From Thermoplasmatota archaeon (GTDB lineage Archaea > Thermoplasmatota > Thermoplasmata > UBA10834): DNA of 64,000 nucleotides. The notes below the pieces were generated by a model. It saw nothing but the letters and a program-made list of their open reading frames with translations. It was not told the origin of the DNA and ran no database searches. Made by a program: the position numbers and the translations under genes. This document shows positions 1 through 22,813 of the stretch, one piece after another (position 1 is the first letter of the stretch; every line of letters starts with the position of its first letter). Where the stretch lies: positions 62,001 through 126,000 of the forward strand of contig JAHIRF010000004.1 of assembly GCA_018818785.1 (NCBI GenBank). Direction: 5' to 3'.

Positions 1-1251
1 CCTCGCCTTGTTGTAGTTGAGCTCATGCTCAACTCCGTATGCCATGACATCCCTGTTGAACACGGTGACCTCGATCTTCTCGGACGGACCTAGCTTCACC
101 TCTTCGGCATCGCTCTCGCCCTCGGTTCCCCGGCCGCGTCTCCTGCGCCTACGCTCGAGGATCTCGTCCGTCGCCTTCTTCTCGACCGGGATCTTGTCGA
201 CCACGGTGCCCTGCTTCTCGGCCAGTCCTAGCATGTTCTCGTAGTTGTCGACGATATTGATCGCGTTCTTGATCGCCACATTGCAGCAGATCCTGGAGCA
301 GTAGCTGAGCTTCTGTCCCCTTGACCCGGCGCACTGCACGAACGCGACGCTCTTCAGCTTCGGGAGGGTCTTCTTCTTGCACAGTATCTCGAACTCTGTC
401 AGGGTGACCACGTTCGGGAACTGGTTGTAGCCGTACAACCCCTCGGGGACGTACTCGAGCGCGCCCGTCGCCACTATGATCGTACCGACCTTGATCTTCT
501 TGTCCTCGGCTCCCTTGTGGCCTATCGCGACCTCGTAGTTCCCTATGAATCCCTCGACGCTCTTCAGCATCGAGTTGGTGTATACTGTTATGTTCTTGTG
601 TTCGTTGACCTTCTTGATCAATGGGACGATCGTCTCCTCGGCTCCCTTGTCCGTGACATAAAGGTTGTTCAGGAGCTTGACGAACCCTCCGAGTTCGCCG
701 TCCCTCTCGACGAGGTGCACGGGGAATCCCATGTCCGCCATGGACAGGGCAGCGGACATCCCGCTGACTCCGCCACCAACGACCAGGGCGGTCGACTCCA
801 CATCGACCCTGACCTCTTCCTGGGGCACGAGCAACCTGGCCCGGGAAACGCCCATCCGTATGAGGTCCTTGGCCTTGACCGTCGCCTTGTCCTTCTCCTT
901 CATGTGGACCCAGGAGCAGTGTTCACGTATGTTCACGAATGTAAACAGGTACTTGTTCAATCCAGCGGACTCGCAGGTCGCCTGGAACAGCGGCGCGTGC
1001 GTCCTCGGAGTGCAGCTCGCGACGATGACCCTGTTCAGGTTGTGCTTCCTGATGGCCTCCCTTATGCTGCTGAGGCCGTCCTCGGCACAGGTGTACAGGT
1101 TGTCATTTGCATAGACCACGTCGGGCAAGGTCTTCGCGTACTCCGCGACGGTCGGAACATCGACGAACCCGCCTATGTTCGAACCGCAGTGGCAGACGAA
1201 CACGCCTATCCTCGGCTTATCACTCTGGATCGCTTCCTTGTTCTCGGCCAT
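1..1251 (-). CDS. HdrA-like flavoprotein, C-terminally cut by window edge
   Basis: The visible 417 residues begin with the HdrA N-terminal domain (VCHCG motif near residue 20, then YTC, ASCTPRTH and HCSWVH cysteine/histidine motifs) and continue into an FAD-binding Rossmann domain (VVGGGVSGMSAAL). The flavin domain lacks the inserted ferredoxin of canonical HdrA, as in the second half of the 1008-residue protein at 4799-7825. A strongly charged, Arg-rich insert of about 50 residues interrupts the region after the CSRICC motif. The ATG at 1251 lies 6 bases after the stop of the upstream HdrA-like gene, so the two are one transcription unit. It probably forms the second subunit of a split tandem HdrA. 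The C-terminus, where a ferredoxin or MvhD domain is expected, is outside the window. Confidence 0.85.
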   Translation of the reverse strand, partial: MAENKEAIQSDKPRIGVFVCHCGSNIGGFVDVPTVAEYAKTLPDVVYANDNLYTCAEDGLSSIREAIRKHNLNRVIVASCTPRTHAPLFQATCESAGLNKYLFTFVNIREHCSWVHMKEKDKATVKAKDLIRMGVSRARLLVPQEEVRVDVESTALVVGGGVSGMSAALSMADMGFPVHLVERDGELGGFVKLLNNLYVTDKGAEETIVPLIKKVNEHKNITVYTNSMLKSVEGFIGNYEVAIGHKGAEDKKIKVGTIIVATGALEYVPEGLYGYNQFPNVVTLTEFEILCKKKTLPKLKSVAFVQCAGSRGQKLSYCSRICCNVAIKNAINIVDNYENMLGLAEKQGTVVDKIPVEKKATDEILERRRRRRGRGTEGESDAEEVKLGPSEKIEVTVFNRDVMAYGVEHELNYNKAR

Positions 1252-21996: not shown

Positions 21997-22318
21997 GTCC
22001 CAACCACCAATTCCTCCAGATCCTCGATCGTCTCAGCACCTTAAAATGCTGTGCCATGGCCCAGCATTCACTGATTGGTTCGGGGTATCACCTTGATCAG
22101 GACAGATGCCGCTCGACAGCGGGACTTCGATAGCGACAGCTTCGATAGCCCTTTGACACAGAAGTGTAAAGACCACGCAAGCGTACTATTGCCAAAAGAG
22201 TCTAAGACACGGTGAACTCCGAGGTATTAAGGGCCTTGGACGACGCCACGCCAGGCACCCCGGTACAGAAAAAGCCTTGATTCCTCGGATTGATGATTAT
22301 ACTGGCCATGCCTAGGAG
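21997..22318. other. intergenic region without recognised features
   Basis: This 322-base stretch lies between a small membrane protein gene and the tRNA-Trp gene. Imperfect repeats of the type TTCGATAGC occur twice near 22125-22150. I found no gene or RNA here. Confidence 0.5.
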
Positions 22319-22492
22319 TGGGGGCAGAGGGATTTGAACCCCCATCAACGGGTTTCCACCACGCGGAGAGCGACTCCGGGTGTTACGGACATCATGGGTC
22401 ATCGCTCCAGTTACTCATCACCGGTCAGCAACCCAATGGAAATCATTCCCATAACTGGAGCCCGTAAGGATACCAGGTTACCCCATACCCCC
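22319..22492 (-). tRNA. tRNA-Trp(CCA) with 101-base intron
   Basis: Exon 1 (22455-22492) has the acceptor strand GGGGGTA, D-arm and anticodon strand ACGGG with loop CTCCAG, so the anticodon is CCA with T33. Exon 2 (22319-22353) has A38, CCCGT, a 4-base variable loop, T-arm GGGGG-TTCAAAT-CCCTC, acceptor TGCCCCC and discriminator A; CCA is not encoded. All 7 acceptor pairs form (one G-T). The intron (22354-22454) is at the usual archaeal position 37/38. The bulge-helix-bulge at the splice sites is imperfect (the 4-base central helix CTCC/GTGG has one mismatch). The intron holds a box C/D guide RNA. Confidence 0.92.
22394..22452 (-). ncRNA. box C/D guide RNA inside the tRNA-Trp intron
   Basis: On the minus strand the order is terminal stem ATGGG (22448-22452), box C-like ATGATTT (22440-22446), guide 1, box D' CTGA (22425-22428), box C' GTGATGA (22415-22421), guide 2, box D-like ATGA (22399-22402) and closing stem CCCAT (22394-22398). 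Guide 2 (22404-22413) is perfectly complementary over 10 bases to the anticodon loop across the exon 1/intron junction, and the base five upstream of box D pairs with C34, the first anticodon base. Intron-encoded guides for tRNA-Trp C34 methylation are known in Euryarchaeota such as Haloferax. Guide 1 only partly matches exon 2 near position 40. Confidence 0.8.
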
Positions 22493-22516: not shown

Positions 22517-22624
22517 CTACTTCTTCCTAAGCCGCTGTGCTCGCTTTCTTCTTCTCATCTTCTTCTTGCGCCATTTCCAGCGCTGCTTGCCTTTCTTCTT
22601 CCAGGCGCGTGAGCTTCGTTTCAT
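22517..22624 (-). CDS. rpl41e: L41e-like ribosomal peptide (35 aa)
   Basis: The 35-residue peptide is almost entirely basic (Lys, Arg, Trp) and contains KWRKKKMRRRKRAQR, matching the L41e pattern of a single Arg/Lys-rich helix. A GGGAG site lies about 9 bases before the ATG, and a TATA box lies about 45 bases upstream. It sits between the tRNA-Arg and tRNA-Trp genes on the same strand. Short basic peptides can be matched by chance, but the promoter, ribosome-binding site and context support a real gene. Confidence 0.65.
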   Translation of the reverse strand: MKRSSRAWKKKGKQRWKWRKKKMRRRKRAQRLRKK

Positions 22625-22692: not shown

Positions 22693-22813
22693 CGGGCCGG
22701 TCGGGAATTTCGGGCGTTTTTGACGCCATTCGAACCCGAGACCACTGGCTCCCTCCGTCCCCCATGAGGGGACATAGAAGGCCAGTGCTATATCCTGACT
22801 AAGCCACCGGCCC
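22693..22813 (-). tRNA. tRNA-Arg(TCT) with two introns, one in the T-loop
   Basis: The acceptor strands GGGCCGG and CCGGCCC pair perfectly, discriminator G at 22693, no CCA. The anticodon stem CTGGC/GCCAG encloses loop CTTCTA...A, anticodon TCT. Intron 1 (22751-22774, 24 bases) lies at 37/38 in a bulge-helix-bulge: CTTC pairs with GGAG, bulges TAT and GGA, outer stem GTCCCC/GGGGAC. Intron 2 (22 bases, 22708-22729) interrupts the T-loop: T-stem TCGGG/CCCGA, central helix TTCG/CGAA, bulges AAT and ATT, intron stem GGCGT/ACGCC. Cutting each bulge after its second base gives the canonical T-loop TTCGAAT and a 75-base mature tRNA. Confidence 0.9.

Follow-up and report, generated by a model that had tools for sequence, protein, structure and literature searches.

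A T-loop intron in the two-intron tRNA-Arg(UCU) gene of a Thermoplasmatota archaeon and its predicted splicing by a single-chain endonuclease

The locus described here raises the question of whether a tRNA gene that is interrupted twice, once in the T-loop, can be a working gene in an archaeon of the Thermoplasmatota. The gene is found on the minus strand at positions 22693..22813 of the window (the whole stretch of 64,000 nucleotides that was analysed), and it specifies a pre-tRNA-Arg(UCU) of 121 nt with two introns and no encoded CCA. This twice-interrupted gene is the only arginine tRNA gene that we found for AGA codons. On the evidence of sequence, it is very probably the working tRNA-Arg(UCU) gene of the genome, whose two introns would be cut out by a single-chain EndA that recognises the strict motif, with the exons joined by RtcB.

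The T-loop intron (22 nt, UGGCGUCAAAAACGCCCGAAAU, window 22707..22728, minus strand) is located at position 59/60, and the anticodon-loop intron (24 nt, window 22751..22774, minus strand) at position 37/38; both have the strict hBHBh' form. The precursor begins with GGGCCGG-UG-GCUU...AGC-A-CUGGC-CUUCUA[24-nt intron]A-GCCAG-UGGUC- and continues after UGGUC with UCGGG-UUCGAA[22-nt intron]U-CCCGA-CCGGCCC-G. In the T-arm, the T-stem TCGGG/CCCGA is the outer helix, TTCG (54-57) pairs with CGAA of the intron as the central helix, the bulges AAT and ATT (3 nt each) stand on opposite strands, and the inner stem of the intron has 5 bp (GGCGT/ACGCC) with the loop CAAAA. The systematic motif search gave outer 5, central 4 and inner 5 for an intron of 22 nt. 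The 37/38 intron is a strict 3-4-3 motif with the central helix CTTC/GGAG and the bulges TAT and GGA. A sequence-only reading of the window had described a 22-base insert between 59 and 60 as a second intron of this tRNA, in a perfect bulge-helix-bulge; the minus-strand sequence and the motif search confirmed the insert, and both motifs proved to be strict. Furthermore, only 34 of 1,000,000 base-shuffled 22-nt inserts formed the central and inner helices.

After removal of both introns, the product has 75 nt, ARAGORN reads it as tRNA-Arg(tct), and the acceptor, D, anticodon and T stems are all intact. Excision of the T-loop intron gives a standard tRNA with a 7-base T-loop, and the 75-nt product called by ARAGORN supports the earlier suggestion that a cut after the second base of each bulge restores this loop. 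The unspliced gene was not detected by ARAGORN in any mode tried (with and without intron options). Detection needs the T-loop intron to be removed, and removal of the anticodon intron alone is insufficient. In addition, the Rfam tRNA model gave the unspliced gene 15.4 bits against a threshold of 29, so these common finders do miss the gene, as had been thought possible. With a permissive threshold, Rfam produced no more than weak snoRNA and sRNA matches in this region. A split or permuted tRNA was also considered, and it was rejected because the exon order is linear and complete.

The source genome has 1.97 Mb in 12 contigs and is 94.5% complete. An Rfam tRNA search of it found 42 tRNAs above the threshold and two below, tRNA-Arg(UCU) being one of these two. 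Our tally by hand gave one gene for each of the 46 expected tRNA species, including the tRNA-Trp of the window and tRNA-Lys(UUU), which was located by a D-arm pattern. Another intact tRNA-Arg(TCT) gene, which the sequence-only reading had named as evidence against the locus, was not found in this 94.5% complete genome; because of that completeness, a second TCT gene is possible in the missing part. Meanwhile, AGA accounted for 52 of 3633 codons in the eleven neighbouring ORFs.

To see how far the T-loop intron is conserved, 60 relatives were searched at the DNA level, and their tRNA-Arg genes were then read one by one. Within the family, 13 complete homologues were read, and each has the intron at the corresponding site (G003, G004, G005, G006, G007, G008, G009, G010, G012, G014, G016, G017, and G018). 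Beyond the family, it was present in G019, which belongs to another family of the same order, and in G036 and G046, which belong to a third family of the same class. Such a survey had been proposed as a check of the insert. In families f4, f6, f9, f12, f13, and f20, ten tRNA-Arg(UCU) genes have no T-loop intron, and their uninterrupted T-loop UUCRAAUCC agrees with the inferred cut sites. Furthermore, each of the five inner-helix pairs was paired in 31-33 of 33 distinct tRNA-Arg(UCU) introns, the changes were compensatory (e.g. GC to CG, UA to GC), and the observed pairing was matched by 0 of 2000 shuffles per pair; this covariation is strong but is not a probability, since the shuffles ignore relatedness. 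The intron sequence outside the paired bases was poorly conserved. In G006, G008, and G017, the 37/38 intron is absent and the T-loop intron is kept; therefore, the two introns are independent. In one relative, a further copy resembling this tRNA-Arg gene (83% identity) was seen at G010:C75:310-445 on the minus strand.

Judged from this conservation and from the predicted fold, the T-loop insert is a real, conserved intron that is almost certainly spliced and functional. One might suppose instead that the gene has decayed, being broken by the insert, and that tRNA-Arg(UCU) is supplied by another gene. Such decay would fit the failure of ARAGORN and Rfam to accept the unspliced gene, but we consider it hardly credible: no other TCT gene was found in the 94.5% complete genome, the four stems are intact once the introns are removed, and the insert is conserved with compensatory changes. 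It is also quite improbable that the insert owes its retention to a second role, for example a delay of tRNA elbow folding or a function as a separate RNA, with splicing as a by-product. In the three genomes named above, the anticodon intron is gone but the T-loop intron remains, and the structure implies that UUCG is locked in the motif until splicing, so the elbow contacts must wait. However, the unpaired part of the intron shows little sequence conservation, and the intron is missing from genes of other families.

The same genome contains other non-canonical introns. tRNA-Arg(CCG) (L045, G000:C9 from 140979, minus strand) has a strict T-loop intron of 26 nt, and Rfam detects only a 58-nt fragment of the gene. 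The resemblance of this intron to that of Arg(UCU) suggests a shared origin or copying. tRNA-Lys(UUU) (L096, G000:C12 from about 195468, plus strand) has a D-loop intron of 40 nt and a T-loop intron of 30 nt, with no anticodon-loop intron. Its unspliced gene was missed by both ARAGORN and Rfam, and ARAGORN reads tRNA-Lys(ttt) when both introns are removed. The T-loop introns of Arg(CCG) and Lys(TTT) are located at a site identical to that in Arg(UCU). The D-loop motif of tRNA-Lys(UUU), read by eye, has a 2x3 internal loop instead of a clean bulge; a strictly narrow enzyme should cut it poorly, and this counts against a strict enzyme. In addition, tRNA-Thr(CGU) (L021 1501-1601, G000:C12:44356-44456) has a strict D-loop intron of 29 nt, and ARAGORN misnames it as Gly(gcc) with an 8-nt intron.

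To estimate the spread of T-loop introns, 300 genomes of the class were searched with the pattern GGTTCRAAN{12,42}YGRAANNCC, and the reversed pattern was used as control. There were 831 matches against 127 in the control, and family f10 had 4.4 matches per genome against 0.16. Most of the checked matches among those listed from named genomes sit in complete tRNA genes. Among the matches listed, the T-loop intron was found in Arg(UCU), Arg(CCG), Asp, Ala(UGC), Trp, Gly(UCC), and Glu(UUC). The main sources were Methanomassiliicoccales, Methanomethylophilaceae, and records with the name Thermoplasmata, and several Methanomassiliicoccus records also had the double-intron tRNA-Arg(UCU). The two-intron tRNA is thus not the isolated case that it had been taken for, and T-loop introns are spread over the class. 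With a stricter pattern applied to the whole phylum, T-loop introns were also accepted in f35 and f58, which lie outside the class; f18, f46, f47, and f55 had none. Matches in Stakelama, Erythrobacter, Tabrizicola, Lysobacter, Acidimicrobiia, Bipolaricaulota, and the Sva-07 Actinomycetota record were taken as chance because they had no flanking tRNA. tRNA-Ala(UGC) genes with T-loop introns (L152, L154, L182) were also seen in records named Nanoarchaeota, archaeon GW2011_AR20, and Woesearchaeota. Thermoplasmata-like tRNAs with T-loop introns occurred in records titled Atopobium sp. and bacterium (L147, L137), and these are probably mislabelled or contaminated bins.

Both a splicing endonuclease and an RtcB ligase are encoded in the genome, RtcB by one gene. 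There is likewise one EndA gene, which encodes 351 aa with two PF02778 (N-terminal) and two PF01974 (catalytic-fold) domains, and no second EndA gene was found in the genome. The C-terminal module aligns to M. jannaschii EndA nearly without gaps and contains the Tyr, His, and Lys, a triad that was read by eye from alignments to 1r0v and 1a79; read in the same way, the N-terminal module has no His at the matching position. Two fused modules with Tyr/His/Lys only in the C-terminal one is the layout of the alpha'2 type. The (alpha-beta)2 type has separate catalytic and structural genes and, in most cases, the crenarchaeal loop; here only one gene was found. The epsilon2 type has three units, an ARMAN-specific loop and about 390 aa, as against two modules and 351 aa; 4fz2 aligned to EndA as three separate pieces, and the ARMAN three-unit layout was not seen. 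The crenarchaeal loop was absent from the catalytic module in the alignment with A. pernix EndA, where the 3p1z insert was taken as the loop. The sequence-only reading had proposed to look for an (alpha-beta)2 or epsilon-type endonuclease; a need for such an enzyme was not supported, and what we found is a single two-module chain without either loop.

The alpha'2 enzymes are described as narrow in a review (PMC6379350), and this narrowness concerns the motif. Archaeal endonucleases recognise the motif irrespective of the tRNA mature domain, and the Ferroplasma EndA, a homodimer, also cleaves BHB motifs that lie outside tRNA, having been placed in mRNA (PMC8707768). Therefore, the strict motif in the T-arm should suit EndA as a substrate, and an enzyme of this kind most likely cuts a correct motif at whatever location. 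From the sequence, the predicted structure, the conservation, and the EndA and RtcB genes, we infer how cutting and ligation would proceed in the cell. In the precursor, the conserved T-loop UUCG would pair with CGAA near the 3′ end of the intron, and the intron would fold back on itself to give the strict bulge-helix-bulge in the T-arm. A homodimer of the two-module, single-chain EndA would then cut each bulge after the second base, and RtcB would join the exons so that the normal T-loop UUCGAAU could form.

A broad-specificity EndA, arising from an extra subunit that was not found or from a single chain with the behaviour of the Methanopyrus kandleri heterotetramer, is unlikely. The closest solved structure to EndA is 5x89 of M. 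kandleri, which is called constrained broad, and the relaxed D-loop motif in tRNA-Lys(TTT) points in the same direction. Furthermore, among 134 genomes covered by both searches, an accepted T-loop intron was found in 0 of 47 with one PF01974 module and in 25 of 87 with two, under a strict filter that undercounts introns. The Fisher test of this contrast (p 9e-6) overstates the case, because families move together by descent, and the contrast is confounded accordingly. Against a broad enzyme, no second EndA gene was found, nothing in the catalytic module corresponds to the crenarchaeal or the ARMAN loop, and the Arg motif is strict, so a broad enzyme is unnecessary. We also considered whether a two-module EndA is sufficient for T-loop introns, and this was rejected since no intron was accepted in f46, despite its two modules.

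Introns at 59/60 are known from Crenarchaeota, best of all from Thermoproteales (PMC4090602, PMC3218864), and share with the present case the position, the BHB principle and the occurrence of multiple introns per tRNA. In contrast, the introns here occur in Thermoplasmatota and alongside a single-chain EndA instead of (alpha-beta)2; each genome has few of them, and those of the Arg genes follow a strict 3-4-3 motif. Beyond Crenarchaeota, introns that are non-canonical or multiple are likewise known from Methanopyrus kandleri and Methanothermobacter (PMC4033280) and from Atabeyarchaeia and Freyarchaeia (PMC11291895). However, M. kandleri has an (alpha-beta)2 EndA, and the Asgard genomes have introns in >90% of tRNA genes (PMC11291895), whereas here the one site 59/60 recurs across the class. 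The surprise is tempered by these Asgard genomes, which are far richer in non-canonical introns. The alpha'2 EndA of Archaeoglobus, Thermoplasma, and Ferroplasma (PMC6379350, PMC8707768) likewise has two fused modules with C-terminal catalysis and neither the crenarchaeal nor the ARMAN loop. The EndA described here differs from it in its 351 aa with a complete N-terminal module, compared with 305 and 289 aa, and in having the M. kandleri pair as its nearest solved relative.

Euryarchaeota with alpha4 or alpha2 enzymes are described as having a single intron in each gene, at the canonical site (PMC4090602). Besides ARMAN, multiple-intron tRNAs of euryarchaea are listed only for Methanopyrus and Methanothermobacter (PMC4033280), and three thermophilic euryarchaeal methanogens are among the groups with non-canonical introns (PMC3218864). 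Two introns are thus as unexpected in a Thermoplasmatota-like genome as the sequence-only reading had held. No description of T-loop introns in Thermoplasmata was found in the literature searched, a scope outside which most subscription papers and GtRNAdb lay, and some of these introns may already be catalogued because tRNAscan-SE 2.0 includes BHB models (PMC8450103). The intron belongs to a known kind, in a lineage described as devoid of it.

Our tentative proposal, for which the odds are somewhat unfavourable, is that T-loop introns are lineage-wide in Thermoplasmatota and overlooked by annotation, that 59/60 is the favoured site, and that they persist only with a complete two-module EndA and are missing where the enzyme is shortened. 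The preference would come from the UUCRA that almost all tRNAs already have at this site: an intron with YGAA and two further bases at its end could be copied into any tRNA gene. The interest of the locus lies in this class-wide pattern and in the enzyme question. Reviews associate broad-specificity endonucleases with introns located elsewhere than in the anticodon loop. A strict motif that lies at a non-canonical site, in genomes whose EndA is a single chain, suggests that intron position and strictness of the motif should be considered separately. In addition, some seemingly missing or truncated tRNA genes in such genomes are interrupted genes, and the Methanomassiliicoccales include enrichment cultures, which offer a testing route.

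Directly downstream of the tRNA-Arg(UCU) gene lies a gene for ribosomal protein L39e, named from its sequence (MKRSSRAWKKKGKQRWKWRKKKMRRRKRAQRLRKK, window 22517..22624, minus strand), and some relatives have the same neighbour. At window 1106-1197 on the plus strand, ARAGORN reported a tRNA-Ser(act) that has no Rfam support and matches no expected anticodon; it is probably spurious. The tRNA-Trp(CCA) gene (window 22318..22492, minus strand) has a 101-nt intron with box C/D-like motifs, which is of the known guide-RNA type, and this gene is a neighbour outside the splicing unit of tRNA-Arg.
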